A model generated the notes under the pieces. The model worked only from the letters and a program-made list of their open reading frames with translations, was not told where the DNA came from and made no database searches. Below are positions 14,586 through 26,687 of a stretch of DNA of 64,000 bases, piece after piece. Source of the DNA: Euzebya pacifica (GTDB lineage Bacteria > Actinomycetota > Nitriliruptoria > Euzebyales > Euzebyaceae). The position numbers were made by a program, and so were the translations under genes. Position 1 is the stretch's first letter. Each line of letters begins with the position of its first letter. Where the stretch lies: NCBI RefSeq assembly GCF_003344865.1, contig NZ_CP031165.1:3911910-3975909 (forward strand). The letters are read 5' to 3'.

Positions 14586-17201
14586 CTAGCGAGTCCAGAC
14601 TGCGCGCTGAGTACCGGCATGGCGGGCAGCCCAGCGGCGGTCCTGTCCGGAGTGGCCGTCGGTCAGGACCTGCAGCTCGACCTCGGGCGCACGGGGCGCT
14701 GACGTCGACAACCAGGTGAACAGCTCGTCGGCGGGCAGCGGGTCCGACCACAGGTAGCCCTGGGCCTCCTCGCAGCCGAGCGCCATCAGGGCCAGCACCG
14801 TCTCGTCGTCCTCCACGCCCTCGGCGACGCAGGACATGCCCAGGTTGTGGGCGAGGTCGACGATGCTCTGCACGATGACGCGGTCGTTGTCGTCGGTCAG
14901 CATGTGCCGGACGAAGCCCTGGTCGACCTTGATCTCGTGCAGCGGAAGCCGCTTGAGGTAGGCCATGGAGGAGAACCCGGTACCGAAGTCGTCGATCGCG
15001 AGGCGTACCCCCATCCGGGCCAGCGCCTCGAGCGTGGCCACCGCCCTGACCGGGTCGGTCAGCATGCTGGACTCGGTGACCTCGAGGGTCAGCATGTCGG
15101 CCGGGAACGCCGTTCGGCGCAGCACCTCGGTCACGTGGGCCGGGAACGCCGGATCCATGACGCTGCGGGCGGAGATGTTGACCGACAGCTCGATCTGTTG
15201 CCCGTCACGGTGCCATCGGATGGCATCGGCGATGGCCCGCTCGAGGACGATGCGGGTCAGCTCGTCGATCAGGCCGGCCTCCTCCGCGATCGGGATGAAC
15301 TCCTGCGGAGGGACGGGACCGAGCTCGGGGTGGGCCCACCGCGCGAGCGCCTCGACGCCGAGCACCTTGCGGTCGGCCAGTCGCAGTCGTGGCTGGTAGC
15401 GGACCTCGAGGTCACCGCGGTGCAGGGCGGTCCGCAGCTCCGCCGCGAGCGCCAACCGGCGGTGGGTGAAGACATCGAGCGAGGGGTCGTACAGGCGCGG
15501 CCGCCCACCCGCGCTCTTGGCGGCGTACATGGTGACGTCGGCGCGCTGCATCAGGTCGTCGGGGTCGGTCGCATGATCGGGGCACATGGCCACCCCGATG
15601 CTGGCGCGGACGTCGACGGCGATGTCGTGCAGCACGCAGGGCTGGTGCAGCTCGGCGGTGACTCGGTCAGCGATGACCAGGGCTTCGTCGGCGTCGACAT
15701 CGGCCACGAGCAGCGCGAACTCGTCCCCGCCGAGTCGGCCGACCACGTCTCCCGGGCGAAGCAGGCCCTGCAGCCGCCCGGCGACTTCCTGCAGCAGCAG
15801 GTCGCCGGTGGCGTGGCCGAGGGTGTCGTTGACCTGCTTGAAGTTGTCGAGGTCGAGGAAGAGCACGGCGAACCGGCTGCCATCGCGGCGCGACCGGTCG
15901 CATGCGCGCCCGAGCTCCCGGTGCAGCAGCGTGCGGTTGGGCAGCTGGGTCAGGCTGTCGTGGTTGGCCTGGTGTGCCTTGTCGGCGGCTTCCCGACGCA
16001 GTCGCTCGACCAGCTGCCCGTTCTCCAGCGCCACGCCGGCGTGACGGGCGAGGGCCCCGACCAGCTCGGCATCGGTCCCGTCGAAGGTGCTGATCTCACT
16101 GGTCCGGTTGGCGGCGACGATCACGCCGCGCAGGCGCTGGACCAGCTCGAGGTCGAGGGACGCCAGGACCGCGTCCTTGACGGGCACGTCGGTGAGGTAG
16201 CGGGTCAGGGGCGCCTCGGTCCGGCCGGCCGGGAACAACGCGGGCCCGTCGGCCACCCGGGCTAGGCACCAGGCCAGGTCGTCGGTGTGGGGTGCCGGCA
16301 GGTCATCGTCCTGACGCAGCTGACCGTCCTGGTGCCGGATGCGCAGGACGGGCTCACCGTCCTCGGCGACCAGGACGAACTCGGCCATCTCGCAGCGCAG
16401 CAGCTGGCAGACCTCCTCCAGCATCGCGGCGGCGGCCTCGCGGGTGTCGCCGGATCGAGCGGTCGAGCTGGTGAACCGATAGAGCGTCTGCAGGTTGGCG
16501 TGGCGCTCGCGGAGCGAGAGATAGGCCTGATAGCCGATGTAGAGGAAGACCGCGACGGCCACGAGTGGCAGCAGCGCCTCGGGTGCGGTCCAGGTCACGC
16601 CGATGACGAAAGCCCCGGCAGCGGCGTTGCCGACGGCCAGGACCGTCCCGATGGTGACGACCTCGCGCAGCATGGCGAGCTGCACCCGCCCCTCGGTCAG
16701 CCAGATCACGGCGGACACCGCCAGCGTGCCCAGCAGGTTCGTGGCGAGGATCGACAGCAGGGCGGCGACCCAGGCCCGCACGCCCAGCGGGGCCTGACCG
16801 TCCAGCACGGCTCGGAAGATCAGCAGGCCGAGCAGGACCTCCGAGGCGAACAGCGCCATGTTGAAGGCGAGCTTCGTGGGACCCTGGCGCTTGACCACCA
16901 GCAGCGTGAACGCCGACCCCAGCAGGCGTGCGCCGACCAGCGCGACAGGGCCCAGCATGCTGTAGCCAAGGAGGAGTGGCAGCTCCGACAATGACAGCGA
17001 GTGGGCGTCCCGGCGGCGGTGCAGGTGGATGACGAACTGTTCGGTGGCGGCGAACGCCAGCGCGAACGCCCACCAGGGACCGACGAAGCGCGGCTGCGCC
17101 ATGGGCAGATCCGTCACTGGGGAGGCCACGAGGAGCGCGACGGCGAACGCCGTCAGCACGCCAGTGACGATCCAGGCGCCCGACTGACCGCGGGTCCTCA
17201 T
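14586..17201 (-). CDS. Membrane-bound GGDEF-EAL protein 1
   Basis: An 871-aa c-di-GMP enzyme. About 250 residues of N-terminal membrane segments include the stretch HLHRRRDAHSLSLSELPLLL. A GAF-like sensor domain follows (about 265-425), then GGDEF (GRLGGDEFALLV, with the RPGD inhibitory I-site five residues before) and EAL (GVEALARWAHPE). EAL catalytic residues are all present: NISARS, LEVTESS, IDDFGTGFSS, the Lys of IKVDQGF, EGVED and QGYLWS. Both cyclase and phosphodiesterase activities are therefore possible. ATG 17201 overlaps the subtilase stop by four bases (ATGA), so the two are coupled. A longer frame to 17417 would run through the subtilase repeat region and is not the start. Confidence 0.9.
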   Translation of the reverse strand: MRTRGQSGAWIVTGVLTAFAVALLVASPVTDLPMAQPRFVGPWWAFALAFAATEQFVIHLHRRRDAHSLSLSELPLLLGYSMLGPVALVGARLLGSAFTLLVVKRQGPTKLAFNMALFASEVLLGLLIFRAVLDGQAPLGVRAWVAALLSILATNLLGTLAVSAVIWLTEGRVQLAMLREVVTIGTVLAVGNAAAGAFVIGVTWTAPEALLPLVAVAVFLYIGYQAYLSLRERHANLQTLYRFTSSTARSGDTREAAAAMLEEVCQLLRCEMAEFVLVAEDGEPVLRIRHQDGQLRQDDDLPAPHTDDLAWCLARVADGPALFPAGRTEAPLTRYLTDVPVKDAVLASLDLELVQRLRGVIVAANRTSEISTFDGTDAELVGALARHAGVALENGQLVERLRREAADKAHQANHDSLTQLPNRTLLHRELGRACDRSRRDGSRFAVLFLDLDNFKQVNDTLGHATGDLLLQEVAGRLQGLLRPGDVVGRLGGDEFALLVADVDADEALVIADRVTAELHQPCVLHDIAVDVRASIGVAMCPDHATDPDDLMQRADVTMYAAKSAGGRPRLYDPSLDVFTHRRLALAAELRTALHRGDLEVRYQPRLRLADRKVLGVEALARWAHPELGPVPPQEFIPIAEEAGLIDELTRIVLERAIADAIRWHRDGQQIELSVNISARSVMDPAFPAHVTEVLRRTAFPADMLTLEVTESSMLTDPVRAVATLEALARMGVRLAIDDFGTGFSSMAYLKRLPLHEIKVDQGFVRHMLTDDNDRVIVQSIVDLAHNLGMSCVAEGVEDDETVLALMALGCEEAQGYLWSDPLPADELFTWLSTSAPRAPEVELQVLTDGHSGQDRRWAARHAGTQRAVWTR

Positions 17202-18913
17202 CGCCACGAGGCGGAGCTCCATGTCGCGTTCGACCACTGGTGCCCCGACCACTGGTGGCCCGACCACTGGTGACCCGCCCACTCTCCGCCGGACCACTGG
17301 TGCCCCGACCACTGATGCCCCGACCACTGATGCCCCGACCACTGGTGGCCGGCCCAGTCGGTGCCGGTCCACGCCAGTCCGATCCAGCGGAGCCCGTCCC
17401 AGCCGTGGCCGGTCCACTGGTTGCCGTTCCAGGCGCCGTCGACCCAGGTGCCGCCGTTGGCCAGGCCCTTGGCCAGGGCAGCGGTGTCCAGGGGCTGGCC
17501 GAAGATGTCGCGGTTGCCGGTCAGCTCGACGCCGTCGGCGGTGGCCAGCACGGCGTCGCCGCGGGTGGCGTCGAGGTCGCCGCCACCTGCGGAGGGCCGG
17601 TGGGTGGGGATGCGGTTGGGCGGGGTGGCACCGGCCATCGTGTCCAGCCGGAGGGCCAGCTGGCCCGTCTCGGGGGTGAACTCGCGCCCCAACCGGTCGC
17701 CGTTGGCCAGCAAAGCCGCCTTGACCATGTCAGGGGTCCAGCGCGGGTTGGCACCGACGACGAGGGCGGCGGCCCCGGACACGATCGCAGCGGACTGGGA
17801 GGTGCCGCTGCCCTTGAAGAACCGTTCGTCGACCGTCGCGGTGTCGCCGTACAGCAGGTCCAGCTGCGAGCCGGGGACCCGCAGGCTGGCCACGGACGCA
17901 CCGGGGGCCAGCAGGTCGGGGTTGCGGCTGCCGTCACCCCGTGCGGAGAACGACAGCGGACGCCAACGCCAGTCGAGGGAGGAGTCGTTGGTGTCGACGG
18001 CACCAACCGCGAGGATCCGCGGGTCGATGGCGGGAGTGGTCAGTCCCCTGACGGTGTCGCCGTCGTTGCCGGCCGCGGCCACGACGACGATGCCGGCGTC
18101 CCATGCGGCCTCGGCGGCGTGGGACAGCGGGTCGGTGGTGTAGCGCTGGCGCGAGTAGGTGCCGTAGGACAGGTTGAGGACGCGGATGTTCAGGCCGGGG
18201 TCGTCGTGATGGGTGACGACCCAGTCGATGGCCGCGATGACCTGCGAGACGTCGGTGACGCCATGCGCGTCGGCGACCTTGAGGCTGATCAGGTGGGCGT
18301 CCGGCGCCATGCCGAGGAAGCCGCCGGCATCGGGGCGCGTCGGATGGGCGTCGGCATCGCGTCCGACGATCAGCCCGGCCATGTGGGTCCCGTGGCCGTA
18401 GGTGTCGAGGTGCCGCAGCTCGGGGGCGTTGGCCTCGAAGGACAGGTCGGGACCGTGCCGGACCTGGCCGGCGTCGAGGCCCTGCACCGGGGCGACGCCG
18501 GTGTCGATCAACGCCACGCCCACCCCGGCGCCCGTCGCACCGGAGGCCCAGTAGTCCTCGGCGCCGGTGACGTCGACGACCGTTCGGACGGTCACGGGCT
18601 GGGTGGCGTCGACCCGCGAGTCGGCGAGCGGTTGGATCCGCTCGTCGGGGGTGATGGTCAGGTCGGCGGCACGCAGGTCGGCCACCCGGTCGGCGGGCAC
18701 CTCGGCGGCCACGCCGTCGATGACCTCGAGCGTCAGCTCGACGTCCCCGCCCGCGTCACGGACAGCGGCTGCCGCGTGGGCGGTGGACTGCTCGCTGCGG
18801 ACGATCACCGACACCATGTCGGCATCCGCCATGGCCGGCTGCACGAGCACGGCGGCGACCACGACCCCAAGGATCGCGGCCGCGGATGCTCGGACACGCA
18901 CTGACCAGGACAC
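17198..18913 (-). CDS. Secreted subtilase (S8) 1 with HQWSG repeats
   Basis: A 571-aa exported serine protease. Signal peptide 1-30 (cleavage near AMADA), I9-like prodomain about 33-95, catalytic Asp137 (ALIDTG), His174 (YGHGTHMAG), oxyanion Asn283 (AAGND) and Ser372 (GSGTSQSAA). After a linker comes a Trp-rich array of five-residue units, mainly HQWSG with variants (TDWAG, GEWAG, LAWTG), from about 500 to the end (NATWSSASWR). No sorting signal or membrane anchor is seen, so the array may bind the surface or a partner. It is translationally coupled to the GGDEF-EAL gene. GTG 18913 is the only start that keeps the whole signal peptide. Confidence 0.9.
   Translation of the reverse strand: MSWSVRVRASAAAILGVVVAAVLVQPAMADADMVSVIVRSEQSTAHAAAAVRDAGGDVELTLEVIDGVAAEVPADRVADLRAADLTITPDERIQPLADSRVDATQPVTVRTVVDVTGAEDYWASGATGAGVGVALIDTGVAPVQGLDAGQVRHGPDLSFEANAPELRHLDTYGHGTHMAGLIVGRDADAHPTRPDAGGFLGMAPDAHLISLKVADAHGVTDVSQVIAAIDWVVTHHDDPGLNIRVLNLSYGTYSRQRYTTDPLSHAAEAAWDAGIVVVAAAGNDGDTVRGLTTPAIDPRILAVGAVDTNDSSLDWRWRPLSFSARGDGSRNPDLLAPGASVASLRVPGSQLDLLYGDTATVDERFFKGSGTSQSAAIVSGAAALVVGANPRWTPDMVKAALLANGDRLGREFTPETGQLALRLDTMAGATPPNRIPTHRPSAGGGDLDATRGDAVLATADGVELTGNRDIFGQPLDTAALAKGLANGGTWVDGAWNGNQWTGHGWDGLRWIGLAWTGTDWAGHQWSGHQWSGHQWSGHQWSGGEWAGHQWSGHQWSGHQWSNATWSSASWR
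17231..17352 (-). repeat. 15-bp tandem repeat encoding HQWSG units
   Basis: Direct repeats of about 15 bp, core CGACCACTGG on the + strand with the rest varying between TGCCC, TGGCC and TGACC, code for the HQWSG pentapeptides at the end of subtilase 1. The array is interrupted by one diverged unit (17271-17290). The reading frame is kept throughout. Confidence 0.8.
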
Positions 18914-18928
18914 GGACTGCTCCGAACG

Positions 18929-19011
18929 GTTACTGAACGTTACTCAGTCCGTCGGCACTAGTTCATCTGAACTTGAGTACGAACTGTGTCGGCTTTCTGA
19001 CGTTCAGTAAC
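18929..19011. promoter_or_regulatory. Nested inverted repeats upstream of subtilase 1
   Basis: In the 206-bp gap upstream of the subtilase 1 start, 12-bp arms GTTACTGAACGT (18929-18940) and ACGTTCAGTAAC (19000-19011) face each other. Between them lies a second palindrome, AGTTCATCTGAACT (18960-18973). All share a TTCA/TGAA core and are AT-rich for this genome. TTACTGAA also recurs upstream of subtilase 3. The arrangement suggests binding sites for one regulator; which one is unknown. Confidence 0.5.
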
Positions 19012-19119
19012 ACTGCCCCGTTGCACGAACGGGCAACCGTCGTGCGCGAGTTCGCCAGCCTCCTCGGTTCGACGAGGACCGCCTGCTCGAGCCGGGCTGG
19101 GCTGACCCGCAGGGCCGGG

Positions 19120-21666
19120 TCAGATGGCGACGGGCCGAGCCGCGCTGACCGGCACGACGGACCGGTCCTCGTGGACCAGCAGCTGCAGCAGCGCCGAGGC
19201 CGACACCGGTCGGGACCACAGATAGCCCTGGGCGACCCCACAGCCGAGCGCCAGCAGCGCGTCGCTGGTCGCGGTGTCCTCGACCCCTTCGGCGACGGTC
19301 GACATCCCGAGGTTGTGGGCGAGGTCGAGGATGCTGCGCACGATCACCGCGTCGCTCTCGTCCACGAGCATGGTCCGGATGAAGCCCTGATCGATCTTGA
19401 TCTCGTCCAGCGGCAGCCGCTTGAGGTACGCCATGGACGAGAACCCGGTCCCGAAGTCGTCGATGGACAGCTCCACGCCGAGCGCCGCGATGGCCGTCAG
19501 GTTGGCGACGGCCTGCTCGCGGTCGGTCATCATGCTGGACTCGGTGACCTCGAGGGTCAGCAGGTGCGGGGCGATGCCGGTGGTCCGCAGCAGGTCGGTC
19601 AGGTGCGCCGGGAAGTCCTGGTCGATCACGCTGCGGGCGGAGATGTTGACGGCGACGCTGATGAGGTGACCCCGGGCATGCCAGACCTGCGCGTCCTCGA
19701 TGGCGCGGTGCAGCACATGGGTCGTCAGCTCACGGATCAGGCCGGTCTCCTCCGCGATGGGGATGAACTCGTCGGGGCCGATCTGTCCCATCTCGGGGTG
19801 GTTCCAACGGGCCAGCGCCTCGGCGCCGACCACGACGTCGTCGGACAACCGCACCTTGGGCTGGTAGGCGACGCCGATTCGCCGTTCCCTGATCGCGGTC
19901 CGCAGCTCGGCGGCGAGGGCCAGCCGTCTGTGGGTGTGGACGTCCAGCTCCGGGGCGTACATGACCGGTCCCCTGCCGTCGTGCTTGGCCGCGTACATCG
20001 CCACGTCGGCGCGCTGGAGCAGCTCGTCGGGGTCCCCGGCGTGCTGGGGGCAGGTCGCCACGCCGAGGCTGGCCCGGACGTCGACGGCGATGCCGTCCAG
20101 GGCGCACGGCCTGTTGAGCTTCTGGATCAGCCGGTCGGCGACCACCATCGCCGCATCGGGTGCCACGTCTCGGACCAGCACCGCGAACTCGTCGCCGCCC
20201 AGCCGGGCCACGCTGTCGCCGGGCCGAAGTGACGCGGAGAGCCGCAGCGCGACCTCCTGGAGCAGCAGGTCACCGGTGGCATGGCCGAGGGTGTCGTTGA
20301 CGTCCTTGAAGTTGTCGAGGTCCAGCAGCAGCACGGCGAAGCCGGTGCCGTCGTCCAGCGACGTCTGGCACGCGGCGGTGAGCTCGACCTGGAACAGCTT
20401 GCGGTTGGGCAGGCCGGTCAGGCTGTCGTGGTTGGCCTGATGGGCCTTCTCGGCAGCCTCGCTCTGGAGGCGTTCCACGAGTCGGCCGTTCTCCAGCGCC
20501 ACGCCCGCGTGTCGGGCGAGGGCCTCGAACAGCTCGACATCCTCGTCATCGAACGTGCTGACCTCGCTCGTCCGGTTCGCCGCGACCACGATCCCGACGT
20601 GGTACTCGGCCAGCTCCAGGGCGATGGGTGCCAGCATGACGTCCTTGAGGGTCAGCCCCTCCATGTGTGCCCGAACTGGTGGGGGCAACGAGCTGCCCGA
20701 GAAGCGGACGGCCCCACCGGCGGTCTGGGACAGGCACCACTGGATCTCCGCAACGTCGACGGCCGGCAGGTCGTCGTCCACGAGGAGCCGGTCGTCCTGG
20801 AGGCGCAGGCGGAGCACCACCTGGCCGTCGGGCTGGACCAGCGCGAACTCGGCCGCCTCGCAGCGCAGCAGCTCGCAGACCTCCGCCAGCATCGCGGCCG
20901 CGGCTTCCCGGGTGTCTCCGGACCGGGCGGTGGCGCTGGTGAACCGGTACAGCATCTGCAGGTTGGCATGACGCTGTCGCAGCATCAGGTGGGCGCGGTA
21001 GCCGATGTACATGAACGCCGCGACGGCCACGAGCGGCACGATCGCCTCCGTGGAGGTCCACAGGACCGACAGCACGAGGACACCCACCGCGGCGTTGCAC
21101 AGCGCCAGGAAGGTGCCGATGACACCGACCTCCCGCAACATGCCGAGCTGCACCCGCCCTTCGGTCGACCAGATGGCCGCGGAGATGGCGACGCTGCCGA
21201 GGACGTCGGTCGCCAGGGTCGCCGCGCCGGCCGCGATCCAGGCCCGGGAGTCCGTCGGGGGGTGGGCGCCCAGGATGCTGCGGAAGATGATCAGGCCGAC
21301 GACGGCTTCGAGGGCGAACAGCGAAAGGTTGAACGCCAGCTTCGCGGACACCTGGCGGCGCAACACGACCAGCGTGAACGCGGCACCCAGCAGCCTGGCC
21401 AGCAGCAGTGTTGGGGCGGCCAGGAACCCGTAGCCGAGCAGGAGGGGGAGCTCCGACAGCGACAGGGAGTGGGCGTCGCGCCGCAGGTGGAGGTGGATGA
21501 CGAAGTACTCGGTCGCCGCGAAGCCGATCGCGAACCCCCACCAGGGCAGCTCCACCGGTGGGGTGGCGAACGGCAACGAGCGGACCGGACCCATGAACAG
21601 GACGAGCGCGCCGACGGCGAGGAGGCCGATGAGCCCCCACACGCGTACAGCAGCCCTGCGGTTCAC
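19120..21666 (-). CDS. Membrane-bound GGDEF-EAL protein 2
   Basis: An 848-aa paralog of the protein at 14586-17201, with the same order: hydrophobic N-terminal segments (about 1-230, including HLHLRRDAHSLSLSELPLLL), GAF-like domain, GGDEF (ARLGGDEFAVLV, with RPGD I-site) and EAL (GAEALARWNHPE). EAL residues NISARS, LEVTESS, IDDFGTGFSS, IKIDQGF, EGVED and QGYLWS are intact. GTG 21666 has GGAGGAG about nine bases upstream. The stretch after the subtilase stop contains a structured element. Similarity to paralog 1 is high across the membrane region, so both probably sense the same kind of signal. Confidence 0.9.
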   Translation of the reverse strand: MNRRAAVRVWGLIGLLAVGALVLFMGPVRSLPFATPPVELPWWGFAIGFAATEYFVIHLHLRRDAHSLSLSELPLLLGYGFLAAPTLLLARLLGAAFTLVVLRRQVSAKLAFNLSLFALEAVVGLIIFRSILGAHPPTDSRAWIAAGAATLATDVLGSVAISAAIWSTEGRVQLGMLREVGVIGTFLALCNAAVGVLVLSVLWTSTEAIVPLVAVAAFMYIGYRAHLMLRQRHANLQMLYRFTSATARSGDTREAAAAMLAEVCELLRCEAAEFALVQPDGQVVLRLRLQDDRLLVDDDLPAVDVAEIQWCLSQTAGGAVRFSGSSLPPPVRAHMEGLTLKDVMLAPIALELAEYHVGIVVAANRTSEVSTFDDEDVELFEALARHAGVALENGRLVERLQSEAAEKAHQANHDSLTGLPNRKLFQVELTAACQTSLDDGTGFAVLLLDLDNFKDVNDTLGHATGDLLLQEVALRLSASLRPGDSVARLGGDEFAVLVRDVAPDAAMVVADRLIQKLNRPCALDGIAVDVRASLGVATCPQHAGDPDELLQRADVAMYAAKHDGRGPVMYAPELDVHTHRRLALAAELRTAIRERRIGVAYQPKVRLSDDVVVGAEALARWNHPEMGQIGPDEFIPIAEETGLIRELTTHVLHRAIEDAQVWHARGHLISVAVNISARSVIDQDFPAHLTDLLRTTGIAPHLLTLEVTESSMMTDREQAVANLTAIAALGVELSIDDFGTGFSSMAYLKRLPLDEIKIDQGFIRTMLVDESDAVIVRSILDLAHNLGMSTVAEGVEDTATSDALLALGCGVAQGYLWSRPVSASALLQLLVHEDRSVVPVSAARPVAI

Positions 21667-21705
21667 CGTCCGACTCCTCCTGGTCCAGCGACATACGGCT
21701 TCCGG

Positions 21706-21762
21706 CCCGTGTCAGGGGCGTTGTCCTCCTGATCGGCAGGTGTCCTGCCCACCTGACACGGG
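21706..21762 (-). promoter_or_regulatory. Intercistronic structured element between subtilase 2 and GGDEF-EAL 2
   Basis: The 115-bp gap contains a perfect 11-bp inverted repeat, CCCGTGTCAGG (21706-21716) and CCTGACACGGG (21752-21762). Inside it is a smaller hairpin, GGCAGG (21735-21740) and CCTGCC (21744-21749). In mRNA sense the unpaired part also holds an AGGAGGA sequence resembling a ribosome-binding site. It lies about 40 bases before the GGDEF-EAL start. Possible roles are attenuation, mRNA processing or uneven expression of the two products. Confidence 0.5.
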
Positions 21763-21781
21763 CGCCTCTCCTTCGGTGTGA

Positions 21782-23281
21782 CTACCTCCAGGCCCCGGTC
21801 GACCAGCTGCGGCCGCTCCAGGACCGTCCCGACCACGACCGCCCTGACCACGACCGTCCAGACCAGGAACGACCCGACCACGACCGCCCCGACCACGAGC
21901 GTCCGCTGAACTCGTCGGCGGAACCCCACTCCTGCCCGGTGAAGCTGGTCGACCACACCGCCGGGCTCCATGCCGGTCCGGCGAAGGAGTCGGTGCAGAA
22001 GCAGTCGCCGGTCCACCGCACGCCGCGGTAGACGCCACCGTCCCATGCATGGTTCGTGCCGACCCACGAGACGCCGTGGATGTCGACCTCGGTGTCGAGC
22101 TCGACCTCGTCGTGGGCCACGTGCTCGCCGTTGCGGCTCGCCTCCAGGCTGCCCGTCCCCAGGTGGGTGAACGCTTCCCGTGCCCCGTCGGACACGTCAC
22201 GGGCCGCGGCCCGGCTGATGTCGAGCATGCCCTGGCCCCTGCTGCGCCGGTCGGCGTGCAGGAGGTTGGCGCTCGTCGTGCGGAGCAGCTGGTTGACCTG
22301 CTCGGGCTGCAGCTGCGGGTTGTCCTCGATCAGCAGCGCGATCGCGCCGGAGACGACCGCGGCCGCCTGGGAGGACCCCGAGCCCAGGAAGAGGGCGTCG
22401 CCGACACGGGCGGACGCGTGCTCGGTGTCGATGGTCGAGCCCGGGTTGCGCAGGCTGGTGATGGAGGTGCCCGGTGCGACGATGTCCGGGTGGCGCGTAC
22501 GGTCGCCGGTGCTGGAGAACAGCGCCACGATGTCGTCGTCGATGGTGGAGGTGTCCCGCAGGTCCGCGGCACCAGCGGCGATGACCCGTGGGTGGGTGGC
22601 CGGGGCGTTCAGCGATGCGCTGCCGAACCCTTCGTTGCCGGCGGCGACGACGACGACGATGCCGGCGTCCCAGGCCCGGCCGACGGCGGCGGCGAGCGGG
22701 TCGACCTCGACGGGCTGCACCCCCGTGGTGCCGTAGGAGAGGTTGATGATCCTGATGCCGAGCTCGTCGGCGTGGGCCACGGTCCAATCGATGGCGGCGA
22801 TGGCCTGGGTCACGTCGACGGCGCCGTCGTGACCGGCGATCTTGACGTTGACCAGGTGCGCCCCGGAGGCCAAACCGCGGGAGGAGTCGTCGATCCCGGT
22901 GCCGGCGATGATCCCCGCGATGTGGGTGCCGTGGCCGTAGGTGTCGAGGTAGCGCAGCGCCGCGATCTGGGACTCGAAGGACAGGTCGGGGCCGTTGATG
23001 ACCTTGCCCGGGCCGTCGAGACCCGGGACGGGGACCACGCCGGTGTCGATCAGGGCGACGCCGACCCCGGCACCGGTGAGGCCGCGGTCGTGCAGGTCGT
23101 CGGCCCCGATGGCCTCGGCGACCTGCGCGAGGGTGAGCGGTCCGTTCGTTGCGACGGTGGCGGTGTGGTTGCCACGCCCTCCAGCGGAGGCCCCGGTGGC
23201 GGACACGGTGAGGAACAGGGCCATCGTCACTGCGAGGGCGGCGCTGAGGAGGCGGTTCGGGCGTGCGGGATACTGGATCAT
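21782..23281 (-). CDS. Secreted subtilase (S8) 2 with RSWSG repeats
   Basis: A 499-aa exported serine protease. ATG 23281 is set by AGGAG seven bases upstream and begins a signal peptide (LSAALAVTMALFLTVSATGA, ending near ASA). No I9-like prodomain is present: the mature protein goes almost directly into the catalytic domain. The triad is visible in VALIDTG, YGHGTHIAG and GSGSSQAAA; the oxyanion Asn is in AAGNE. The tail is an array of RSWSG units ending in WSTGAWR, preceded by a short Cys-containing Trp-rich stretch (TGDCFCTDSF). It is 62 bp downstream of subtilase 3 with no room for an obvious promoter, so they are probably cotranscribed. Confidence 0.88.
   Translation of the reverse strand: MIQYPARPNRLLSAALAVTMALFLTVSATGASAGGRGNHTATVATNGPLTLAQVAEAIGADDLHDRGLTGAGVGVALIDTGVVPVPGLDGPGKVINGPDLSFESQIAALRYLDTYGHGTHIAGIIAGTGIDDSSRGLASGAHLVNVKIAGHDGAVDVTQAIAAIDWTVAHADELGIRIINLSYGTTGVQPVEVDPLAAAVGRAWDAGIVVVVAAGNEGFGSASLNAPATHPRVIAAGAADLRDTSTIDDDIVALFSSTGDRTRHPDIVAPGTSITSLRNPGSTIDTEHASARVGDALFLGSGSSQAAAVVSGAIALLIEDNPQLQPEQVNQLLRTTSANLLHADRRSRGQGMLDISRAAARDVSDGAREAFTHLGTGSLEASRNGEHVAHDEVELDTEVDIHGVSWVGTNHAWDGGVYRGVRWTGDCFCTDSFAGPAWSPAVWSTSFTGQEWGSADEFSGRSWSGRSWSGRSWSGRSWSGRSWSGRSWSGRSWSTGAWR
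21801..21910 (-). repeat. 15-bp tandem repeat encoding RSWSG units
   Basis: About seven direct repeats of roughly 15 bp, core GACCACGACCG on the + strand, encode the RSWSG pentapeptides at the end of subtilase 2. The unit differs from those of the other two subtilases, showing separate homogenisation. Confidence 0.75.
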
Positions 23282-23343
23282 CGTGGTGCTCCTGGGGTGT
23301 GGTGCGGCGGTGGCGGTGCGGCGGGTGCGGTGGGTGCGGTGGT

Positions 23344-25044
23344 TCACCGCCACGTCGTGGCACTCCAGGTCGCGTTGGACCACTGGTTGCCGGACCACTG
23401 GTTGCCGGACCACTGGTTGCCCGACCACTGGTTCCCGGACCACTGGTTGCCCGACCACTGGTTGCCCGACCACTGGTTGCCGGCCCAGTCGGTTCCGGAC
23501 CACTGGTTGCCGGACCACTGGTTGCCCGACCACTGGTTGCCCGACCACTGGTTGCCGTTCCATGTGCCGCCGACCCAGGAGCCGCCGGTCTCGAGGGCCT
23601 GGGCCAGCGCTGCGGTGTCCACGGGTGCACCGAAGATGTCGACCTCTCCGGACAACCGCACCCCGCTGGGGGACTCCAGGACCGCATCGCCGCGGGAGGC
23701 GTCGAGGCTGCCGCCACCGGTCGCGGGGACGTCGCGCTGCACGGATGCGTTCGGGGTGACCCCGTGCATCTGGTGCATGCGCAGGGCGTCCTTGCCGGTG
23801 ATCCGGGTGAACCCGGCACCGGGCCGAAGCCCGTTGGCCTCCTCGAGCAGCGCGTCCTTGACCATGTCGGGGGTCCACGACGGGTTCGCGCTGACGACCA
23901 GCGCGGCAGCACCCGAGACGAGCGCGGCGGCCTGCGAGGTGCCGGACCCCTTGAAGAAGCGTCCGTCGACGACGGCGGTGTCGCCGTACGCCTGGTCGAG
24001 GAAGGAGCCGGGCACCCGGAGGCTGGCAAGCGACGAGCCCGGTGCGAGGATGTCGGGGTTGCGATGTCCGTCACCGCGGGCGGAGAACGACAGGGGGTTC
24101 CAGTGTGAGTACCGGGTGCTGCCGTGGGTGTCGACCGCGCCGACGGCGATGACCCTCGGGCTGTAGGCCGGCGAGGTCAGGCCGACGCGCTCGTCGCCGT
24201 CGTTGCCGGCAGCGGCGACCACGACGATGCCGTGGTCCCAGGCGGCCTCCGCAGCATGGGCCAGCGGATCGGTCTCGTAGCCCTGGTCGGGGTAGGTGCC
24301 GAAGGAGAGGTTCAGCACACGGATGTTGAGGCCGGGGTCGTCACGATGGGTGATGACCCAGTCGATCGCGGCGATGACCTGCGACACATCGGTCGCGCCG
24401 CGGGAGTCAGCGACCTTCAGGCTGATGACGTGGGCGTCGGGAGCCATGCCGAGGAAGTCGTCCGGCCGGCTGGCGAAGCTCTCGGGGGACGCACCGGGGT
24501 CGCGGCCGGCGATGAGGCCGGCCATGTGCGTGCCGTGCCCGAAGGTGTCGAGGGAGCGCAGGCTGGTGGCGCTGGCCTCGAAGGAGAGGTCCGGGCCGTG
24601 GATCACCTGGCCGTCGAGCCCCTGGACGGGTGCGACACCGGTGTCGATCAGCGCAACGCCGACCCCCTCACCGGTGGCGCCGCGCGCCCAGTACCTGTCG
24701 GCGCCGGTGACGTCGATGGCGGTACGGACCGTGTAGGTCTCGTCACCGCTGTTGTGGCGACCGTGCATGGCGAGCCGGTGGTCGCGGGTGACGGTGTGGT
24801 CGTCGTCGAGGGTGTCCAGCGCATGGATCGGGACCTGCGCGGCGACGGCGTCGACCACGTCAAGCGTTCGGACGACCTGCCCGCCGGCGTCGAGCACGGC
24901 GGCGCCAGCGGCAGCCGCCGAGTCCGTGCTGCGCACGATGACCGATACCAGCTCACCAGCAGGTGACGGGGGTATCTGGAGGAGCGCCGCGAGCATGGCC
25001 GCGAGCAGGAGAAGCACAGGAGTGCGCCGAGAACGAGCGAGCAC
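23344..25044 (-). CDS. Secreted subtilase (S8) 3 with NQWSG repeats
   Basis: A 566-aa exported serine protease, a close paralog of subtilase 1. Signal peptide 1-29 (PVLLLLAAMLAALLQIPPSP), I9-like prodomain about 32-95, triad in VALIDTG, FGHGTHMAG and GSGTSQAAA, oxyanion Asn in AAGND. The tail holds eleven NQWS units with one TDWAG interruption and ends NATWSATTWR, almost the same ending as subtilase 1. GTG 25044 is the start that keeps the signal peptide; its ribosome-binding site is poor. It is first in the probable operon subtilase 3 - subtilase 2 - GGDEF-EAL 2. Confidence 0.9.
   Translation of the reverse strand: MLARSRRTPVLLLLAAMLAALLQIPPSPAGELVSVIVRSTDSAAAAGAAVLDAGGQVVRTLDVVDAVAAQVPIHALDTLDDDHTVTRDHRLAMHGRHNSGDETYTVRTAIDVTGADRYWARGATGEGVGVALIDTGVAPVQGLDGQVIHGPDLSFEASATSLRSLDTFGHGTHMAGLIAGRDPGASPESFASRPDDFLGMAPDAHVISLKVADSRGATDVSQVIAAIDWVITHRDDPGLNIRVLNLSFGTYPDQGYETDPLAHAAEAAWDHGIVVVAAAGNDGDERVGLTSPAYSPRVIAVGAVDTHGSTRYSHWNPLSFSARGDGHRNPDILAPGSSLASLRVPGSFLDQAYGDTAVVDGRFFKGSGTSQAAALVSGAAALVVSANPSWTPDMVKDALLEEANGLRPGAGFTRITGKDALRMHQMHGVTPNASVQRDVPATGGGSLDASRGDAVLESPSGVRLSGEVDIFGAPVDTAALAQALETGGSWVGGTWNGNQWSGNQWSGNQWSGNQWSGTDWAGNQWSGNQWSGNQWSGNQWSGNQWSGNQWSGNQWSNATWSATTWR
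23378..23557 (-). repeat. 15-bp tandem repeat encoding NQWSG units
   Basis: Twelve consecutive 15-bp units with the + strand core GACCACTGGTTGCC, eleven nearly identical and one diverged (GGCCCAGTCGGTTCC), encode the NQWSG array of subtilase 3. The high identity implies recent expansion or gene conversion. Confidence 0.85.
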
Positions 25045-25090: not shown

Positions 25091-25118
25091 GCGTTCAACC
25101 TTGAACGCCATTCAGTAA
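25091..25118. promoter_or_regulatory. Palindrome and TTACTGAA motif upstream of subtilase 3
   Basis: A perfect palindrome GCGTTCAACCTTGAACGC (25091-25108) lies 47 bp upstream of the subtilase 3 start. Next to it is TTCAGTAA (25111-25118), the same motif found twice upstream of subtilase 1. The cluster is AT-rich for the genome. A shared regulator of the two subtilase operons is inferred. Confidence 0.5.
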
Positions 25119-25154: not shown

Positions 25155-26687
25155 CTAGCGCTTCTTCTTCTTGCGCTTCGGGACCTTCTTGTTACGGCGC
25201 GGTCCGCCACCCCCGCCGCTGGGGCCGCCCATGCCGGGCATGCCCGACATCGGGTCACCGGCGTTCATCGCGGCGAGCTGCTCCATGAGGTCACCCTCGC
25301 CGCCGCCGGCCATGGCCTTCTGCAGCTGGCGGGCGGCCTTGGCCTGGCCGAGCATGCCGCCGCCTCCGCCGCCGCCCATCCCCATGCCCCCGAGCATCGG
25401 CCCGAGGTTCTTCATCATCTTGCGCATCTCCTCGTAGGAGCGCAGCAGCTCGTTGATCTCCTGGGACGAGCGGCCACAGCCCTTGGCGACGCGCTTCTTG
25501 CGCTTGCCGTTGAGGATCTTGGGGTTGCGTCGTTCCTCGAGGGTCATCGACTGGATGATGGCCTCGATGCGCTTCAGGTCGTCCTCGTCGACCTCGGCCT
25601 GGGCGTCCTTCATGGCCTTGCCCATGCCGGGGATCATCTCCAGCAGCTTGCCGATGGGGCCCATCTGCTTGACCGACTGCAGCTGGTTGAGGAAGTCCTC
25701 GAGGGTGAACTCACCCTTCATCAGCTTCTCGGCCTGCTCCTCGCGCTGCCCCTCCTCGTAGACCTCCTCGGCCTTCTCGATGAGGGTCAGGACGTCACCC
25801 ATGCCGAGGATGCGGCCGGCCATGCGGTCGGGGTGGAAGGCCTCGAACTCGTCGAGCTTCTCCCCCACCGAGGCGAACTTGATGGGCCGTCCCGTGACCT
25901 CGGCCACCGACAGCGCGGCACCACCGCGGGCGTCACCGTCGAGCTTGGACAGGATGACACCGGTGAAGTCGACGGCCTCCTGGAAGGCCTTGGCGACGTT
26001 GACGGCCTCCTGGCCGATCATGGCGTCGATGACGAAGAGGGTCTCGACGGGGTTGACCGCGGCCTTGATGTCGGCCGCCTGCTGCATCATCTCCTCGTCG
26101 ACGTTGGTCCGACCCGCCGTGTCGACGATGACCACGCCGCAGTTGAGGCGCTTGGCCTCGGCGATGGCGTTCTGGGCCACCTCGACGGGGTCGCCCTCGA
26201 GCTTGGGCGCGTACACCGGCACGTCGATGCGCTCGCCCAGCACCTTCAGCTGCTTGACGGCGGCAGGACGCTGCAGGTCGCAGGCGACGAGGAGTGGCTG
26301 GCGGCCCTTGGACTTCAGCAGCTTGGCCAGCTTGCCCGACGCGGTGGTCTTTCCGGCGCCCTGCAGGCCCGCCATCATGATCACGGCCGGCGACGCCGAG
26401 CCGAGGTCGAGGGGAGCCGACTGCTCACCCAGGATCGTCACGAGCTCCTCGTTGACGATCTTGATGATCTGCTGCCCCGGGTTCAGCGCCTCCGAGACCT
26501 CCGCGCCGATCGAGCGTTCGCGGATACGACCGACGAAGGTCTTGACGACCTTGAAGTTGACGTCGGCCTCGAGGAGGGCAAGGCGGATCTCGCGCAGGCC
26601 TTCGCCGACCTGCTCCTCGGTCAGGGTCTTGGAGCCCCGGAACCGGTCGAAGACGGCATCGAGGCGTTCCTGGAGTGCGTTGAACAT
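25155..26687 (-). CDS. ffh: Signal recognition particle protein Ffh (SRP54)
   Basis: Ffh, 510 aa, is the GTPase that with SRP RNA binds signal sequences on ribosomes and docks with FtsY. N domain 1-90; G domain with G1 MAGLQGAGKTTASGKLA, CDLQRPAAVKQL, DTAGRTNVDEEMM and SKLDGDARGGAAL; Met-rich M domain from about 320 with the RNA-binding region KRKKRVAKGCGRSSQEINEL. The C-terminus is Gly/Met-rich and ends in a strongly basic tail. In many relatives ffh is close to rpsP; here more than 12 kb separates them. Confidence 0.97.
   Translation of the reverse strand: MFNALQERLDAVFDRFRGSKTLTEEQVGEGLREIRLALLEADVNFKVVKTFVGRIRERSIGAEVSEALNPGQQIIKIVNEELVTILGEQSAPLDLGSASPAVIMMAGLQGAGKTTASGKLAKLLKSKGRQPLLVACDLQRPAAVKQLKVLGERIDVPVYAPKLEGDPVEVAQNAIAEAKRLNCGVVIVDTAGRTNVDEEMMQQAADIKAAVNPVETLFVIDAMIGQEAVNVAKAFQEAVDFTGVILSKLDGDARGGAALSVAEVTGRPIKFASVGEKLDEFEAFHPDRMAGRILGMGDVLTLIEKAEEVYEEGQREEQAEKLMKGEFTLEDFLNQLQSVKQMGPIGKLLEMIPGMGKAMKDAQAEVDEDDLKRIEAIIQSMTLEERRNPKILNGKRKKRVAKGCGRSSQEINELLRSYEEMRKMMKNLGPMLGGMGMGGGGGGGMLGQAKAARQLQKAMAGGGEGDLMEQLAAMNAGDPMSGMPGMGGPSGGGGGPRRNKKVPKRKKKKR

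Follow-up and report, generated by a model that had tools for sequence, protein, structure and literature searches.

Two modules of exported proteases and membrane-bound GGDEF-EAL proteins beside ffh

The window, by which we mean the whole 64 kb stretch of Euzebya pacifica DNA under study (part of a 5.8 Mb contig in a genome of 6.37 Mb), holds a block of five minus-strand genes in two modules, in the order of transcription S8-3, S8-2 and sensor 2, followed by S8-1 and sensor 1. The block is flanked by ffh (25155-26687) on one side and, on the other, by genes that by eye look like rpsP, rimM, trmD and lepB, together with one for an antiporter-like membrane protein. S8-3 (23344-25044, minus strand) encodes an exported subtilase with a signal peptide, an I9-like propeptide predicted from its structural model, a catalytic domain, a conserved linker and a C-terminal (W-x4) array of the WSGNQ type with 16 periodic Trp residues (23347-23577, minus strand). 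Exported subtilases are likewise encoded by S8-2 (21782-23281, minus strand), which has a short N-terminus and an array of WSGRS units with 8 periodic Trp residues (21785-21895, minus strand), and by S8-1 (17198-18913, minus strand), whose array is of the WSGHQ type with 17 periodic Trp residues (17201-17446, minus strand). Sensor 2 (GGDEF-EAL-2, 19120-21666, minus strand) consists of a membrane domain of predicted S-component fold (20926-21666, minus strand) and of GAF, GGDEF and EAL domains, an architecture that recurs in sensor 1 (GGDEF-EAL-1, 14586-17201, minus strand; membrane domain 16458-17201, minus strand). The Pfam E-values for these genes are 1e-38 to 6e-44 for S8 (the latter for S8-3), about 5e-48 for GGDEF and 1e-73 to 1e-75 for EAL, and the GAF match is weak. 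The five genes and their intact motifs bear out the first-pass annotation, which had described three exported S8 proteases and two GGDEF-EAL proteins in two same-strand modules: the S8-1 stop and the sensor 1 start do overlap in an ATGA (17201-17198; the in-frame ATG at 17222 could serve as the start instead), and both sensors have the HLH-RRDAHSLSLSELPLLL stretch along with the RLGGDEF and EALARW/DDFG motifs.

All three window proteases belong to the S8 family (PF00082; 133-151 bits versus a cut-off of 21.8), and the catalytic Asp, His and Ser as well as the oxyanion Asn are invariant across the protease alignment. The best NCBIfam relatives of the protease domain are the type VII secretion mycosins (TIGR03921, E 1e-38 to 1e-43), an assignment that we rejected on the grounds that the scores of 130-149 bits reach about half the cut-off of 278.75; the tail also differs, being a Trp array here. 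No Pfam repeat family, including the pentapeptide repeats (PF00805), matched the three window proteases at E 0.1. The linker follows the consensus GxGSLExxRG ... GExDIFG ... SWxGGxWNG and in 32 of 42 tails the final or penultimate residue is a Trp, which suggests a capped repeat domain; in the protease model the array has a pLDDT of about 23, with only short strands modelled in the linker and the first repeats.

A decamer, TTACTGAAYG, occurs three times in the 349 kb of sequence from this genome that we examined, each time 5' of one of the two window modules: once as two inverted copies of TTACTGAACG in front of S8-1 (18930-19010) and once, as TTACTGAATG, next to the 18-base palindrome GCGTTCAAGGTTGAACGC upstream of S8-3 (25091-25118). 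Both are presumed regulatory sites, and from its placement the decamer is likely a site for a regulator shared by the two modules. The modules resemble duplicates, the membrane domains of the sensors being 60% and the proteases 64% identical. In another genome of the genus (G002, locus L126) the syntenic place beside ffh is occupied by one sensor gene without a protease; the genus thus varies in its module content at this locus.

Trp arrays accompany the membrane domain throughout the genome

The 6.4 Mb genome has a rich c-di-GMP repertoire of 49 EAL-domain loci, eight of which possess the membrane domain of the window sensors. Nine loci matched when residues 1-400 of sensor 1 (membrane domain plus GAF) served as the query: eight GGDEF-EAL proteins and a distant GGDEF-only protein. 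An array neighbour is present at 8/8 membrane-domain EAL genes versus 0/41 other EAL genes (Fisher 2e-9), which agrees with the first-pass judgement that the repeated pairing is unlikely to be due to chance; an S8 neighbour is present at 6/8 versus 0/41 (p=2e-6), with no S8 gene within 5.5 kb of the other 41 loci. The partners of the eight sensors are S8 proteases for six (one has two) and tiny stand-alone array peptides for two. Beyond the WSGHQ, WSGNQ and WSGRS units of the window, a three-module cluster at 1.014-1.026 Mb has arrays of WGWDG, WSWNG and WSWHG units and a divergent pair at 4.98 Mb has WVGAR units, while divergent micro-peptides of 31 aa (MTRKTDGASWAGAS...) and about 77 aa (...NWAGINWAGIN...) lie at 1.005 and 2.928 Mb, respectively. 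The surroundings of the remaining S8 genes of this genome, when read, contained no arrays, and the remaining matches to Trp-periodic DNA, among those fetched, fell outside called reading frames. One divergent, GGDEF-only paralogue of the domain (L047, C1:3764114-3764791, and L152) lacks an array neighbour and is kept in the genus.

The association holds in both directions and across phyla

The membrane domain was found in 39 of 61 relatives. Among the 95 non-redundant sensor loci that could be assessed, 67 have an array gene and 28 have none, a ratio that is biased low because the pool includes 16 loci picked for having no linker match. Of the 67, a filter detected 66 and missed the 1.005 Mb peptide, and three cases without a period of five were entered by hand after inspection. 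We counted only period-5 arrays and individually inspected peptides because a Trp search at any period proved too permissive (6/22 control windows positive). Typically the protease precedes the sensor on the same strand, with a median gap of 73 bases between array and domain and often an overlap; in several Chloroflexi the order is reversed and in others the genes diverge, with adjacency kept. Assembly gaps (N) lie inside the arrays at L134/L169, L130/L178 and L245, so that the absence of an array from metagenome assemblies is unreliable. Apparent single-frame fusions of array and sensor at L204 and L245 were dismissed, since the frames differ at L204 and the array of L245 has an assembly gap.

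Conversely, scoring adjacency from the side of the array across 246 Actinomycetota genomes, as the first-pass annotation had proposed, found the membrane domain within 5 kb for 32 of 36 linker/array genes, where about 0.6% per gene is expected by chance; this test is not fully independent in that the 36 include six genes of the query genome and some whose loci had served in model building. The four exceptions comprise one gene at a contig end, one beside a histidine kinase and two real orphans. In the same 246 genomes, the co-occurrence of linker/array genes and membrane domain was 23/24 versus 29/222 (p=6e-17), and in a Chloroflexota sample 8/8 array genes adjoin a sensor (within 5 kb, by comparison of coordinates). 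By the refuting outcome named beforehand, homologous pairs lying apart in related genomes, the pairing is clearly not refuted. The pair is widespread, occurs in at least two phyla and is apparently undescribed.

The array is the constant partner and the output is swappable

The pairing of protease and GGDEF-EAL protein claimed from the window is real, repeated and conserved, but the protease is not its invariant element: the constant partner of the sensor is the (W-x4)n array, because arrays occur without a protease at seven sensor loci. In three further genomes of the genus, the orthologue of the 2.93 Mb sensor faces a tiny Trp-repeat peptide as well, the units being WAGVN, GTSWGITD and DGWSWTVTSL; array-only partners are hence kept in four genomes of the genus with differing repeat units. 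Micro-peptides at the orthologous position in L135 (7029-7100) and L143 (6956-7057) keep the Trp repeats although the units are wholly altered in both sequence and length (8 or 10 residues instead of 5). At L162 the kinase is preceded, in place of a protease, by a Trp-repeat protein of 159 aa whose N-terminus is hydrophobic and signal-like. In two micro-peptides the differences between units are confined to third codon positions (0/0/17 and 0/0/18), which argues that these frames are translated and selected, and in many arrays identical units are spelled with different codons, indicating selection on the amino-acid unit. No signal peptide was recognisable in either micro-peptide type of this genus.

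Among the array-paired sensors, 42 have a GGDEF-EAL output (43 when the added peptide locus is counted), 22 a histidine kinase and 2 GGDEF only, with HisKA and HATPase confirmed by Pfam in five kinase-type sensors. Thus GAF-GGDEF-EAL and histidine kinase are swapped while partner and membrane domain stay constant. Of the c-di-GMP output proposed in the first-pass annotation, the preserved GGDEF/EAL motifs of the window sensors stand (overall, the GGDEF letters are kept in 66/86 domains and the EAL and DDF motifs in 74/79), but the output is not specifically c-di-GMP because one third of the array-paired sensors are histidine kinases. An informal look at a few kinase loci revealed no obvious response-regulator neighbour.

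A membrane domain with a predicted S-component fold

The membrane domain was modelled with high confidence (pLDDT 93.4 for sensor 2, from 52 sequences) and is predicted to adopt the fold of ECF S-components, which are the best structural matches of sensor 2. The best match among solved structures is RibU (Z 14.4, 163 residues, 3.0 A, for the predicted model); the top 22 rows are all S-components or metal-transporter relatives and the next rows, at about 9, are unrelated, while Foldseek E-values taken alone are weak (0.02). An additional hydrophobic C-terminal helix follows the S-component core and leads into the cytosol. Positive charges lie at the N-terminus, in a hairpin, in an RRQxxxK loop and in the C-terminal helix, and together with the cytosolic output they point to a domain that probably has eight membrane helices, the N-terminus inside and an inverted core. 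The conserved hairpin and RRQxxxK loop are predicted to be cytosolic, and with the core inverted the S-component-like binding cavity would face inward.

The S-component fold is also that of 5TMR sensor kinases with GGDEF, EAL, GAF, PAS and kinase outputs (Partipilo and Slotboom 2024, PMC11109136), so this class of receptor fold is already known, and the modelled domain would share the fold of known binding proteins and receptors. The likeness to 5TMR-LYT (PF07694) extends to the six-helix S-component core, present in the predicted model, to an extra N-terminal helix, to the cytosolic GAF and to the cytosolic outputs (GGDEF-EAL or histidine kinase). By contrast, the domain described here has the additional hydrophobic helix past the core and a dedicated exported Trp-array partner adjoining, and none of its 52 members matched PF07694 at E 0.05. 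Where 5TMR-LYT receptors have seven helices, an outside N-terminus and a core oriented as in S-components, its charges point to eight helices, an inside N-terminus and an inverted core. MASE9 (PF20972) gave weak matches in 15 of the 52 membrane domains (best 3.6e-5) and none in the genome of the window at E 1; L155 reached 19.7 bits, below the cut-off of 24.3.

Protease and membrane domain diverge together

A mirror-tree comparison of protease and membrane-domain distances gave r=0.81 over 55 pairs, a value that 0/5000 permutations reached. For the six paralogous pairs of the window genome the correlation was r=0.92 (exact p=0.003), and as paralogues of one genome are concerned, species history is excluded as its cause. 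Duplication of the pair as a unit may explain this co-divergence as well as specificity does.

A proposed pair of dedicated partner and receptor, and the alternatives

We think it somewhat probable that these loci encode dedicated pairs of an exported partner and a receptor, in which the S-component-fold membrane domain recognises the array, tethering the protease and/or reporting its state to the output. The partner would be a protein that ends in, or is made of, an array of Trp-spaced five-residue repeats, most often at the C-terminus of an exported subtilase whose catalytic residues are intact, and the receptor would be the membrane domain with its GAF-GGDEF-EAL or histidine-kinase output. 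As the element most likely recognised by the membrane domain, the array may tether the protease to the sensor and/or report protease abundance, release or cleavage, upon which the sensor would change c-di-GMP (or phosphorylation); the protease could be a common but dispensable carrier of the array or the enzyme that alters it. We infer the physical contact, the outside-in direction, the kind of change sensed and the role of proteolysis, and it is plausible that the membrane domain senses the state or the product of the protease outside-in, as first hypothesised from the window. Against the dedicated pair speak the leaderless micro-peptides, the predicted inward-facing cavity, the 28/95 array-less loci, the two orphans, the low confidence of the array model and the possible duplication as a unit; the lack of leaders and the cytosolic placement of the conserved motifs stay unexplained by it.

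Several other arrangements could underlie the same loci. The array might be a multi-copy pro-peptide, cut by the linked subtilase or another protease into short, near-identical Trp peptides that an S-component-like pocket senses as a self-made signal, a logic comparable to that of yeast alpha-factor and the subtilase Kex2. Near-identical units maintained at the amino-acid level in many arrays, units that differ between paralogues, the existence of stand-alone arrays and a carrier that is usually a protease would all fit, but the units of some other arrays vary or are of two alternating kinds (L133, L148, L196, L204), we recognised no conserved cleavage site, and the conserved linker and terminal Trp of the tails suggest a capped repeat domain, such that we consider processing of this kind unlikely. 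A bacterial multi-copy peptide signal in the wider sense, with Trp-pentapeptides released from a protease tail or a micro-peptide, read by an S-component-fold receptor and giving each genome many private channels, side by side, into both c-di-GMP and two-component signalling, is a slightly less doubtful prospect. The array could also anchor the protease to the cell envelope or surface while the sensor shares its regulatory programme (e.g. biofilm or envelope remodelling) without contacting the array. Repeat tails of secreted proteases often bind the wall or polymers and the upstream motif is common to both window modules, but an anchor fails to explain the 31-77 aa array-only peptides adjoining sensors, the one-to-one pairing across phyla, the histidine-kinase versions or why hardly any array genes lie apart from these sensors, and seems to us a rather doubtful account.

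Inside-out control has a precedent in LapD/LapG, where a membrane GGDEF-EAL protein reading cytosolic c-di-GMP gates a periplasmic protease and, as here, protein and exported protease are co-encoded (PMC3032545, PMC3032553). The present pairs differ in their S8 protease, their other membrane domain and their histidine-kinase versions, the GGDEF/EAL motifs are intact in both window sensors and most relatives rather than degenerate, and array-only partners leave no protease to be gated, which makes such control distinctly improbable. Tandem duplication with chance proximity and no functional link draws on the duplicate-like window modules and is hardly credible, being already contradicted by an association that holds at dispersed loci, across phyla and with changed gene order.

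The proposed pair follows a known logic, that of an exported partner and a membrane sensor, but its partner family is apparently undescribed and its receptor is divergent. In NspS/MbaA and YfiR/YfiN, an exported regulator encoded beside a membrane GGDEF-EAL protein controls that enzyme, but partner and membrane domain are unrelated to those described here, where the partners are Trp arrays and usually proteases. No known family tested accounts for the pair, although its parts resemble known classes. As a role in anti-phage defence, PADLOC returned only a generic subtilase and weak IetS matches, and this candidate was rejected. The first-pass statement that no described system of this composition was known agrees with our literature search, in which nothing relevant was found on a pair of this kind, on subtilases with Trp repeats or on MASE9; this is weak evidence, with most subscription journals outside the search.

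To our knowledge, most GGDEF-EAL proteins of the membrane and many membrane kinases have no known ligand. The sensor family described here has a probable partner encoded beside it; the pair exists in many natural versions and its two outputs are interchangeable, so that signal recognition is testable by swapping parts. Recognition of the array would supply an unnamed repeat family with a function and would extend the link between S-component transporters and receptors to Actinomycetota. In two genomes, array-less sensors (L157 and L159) lie directly 3' of groES-groEL-like genes.
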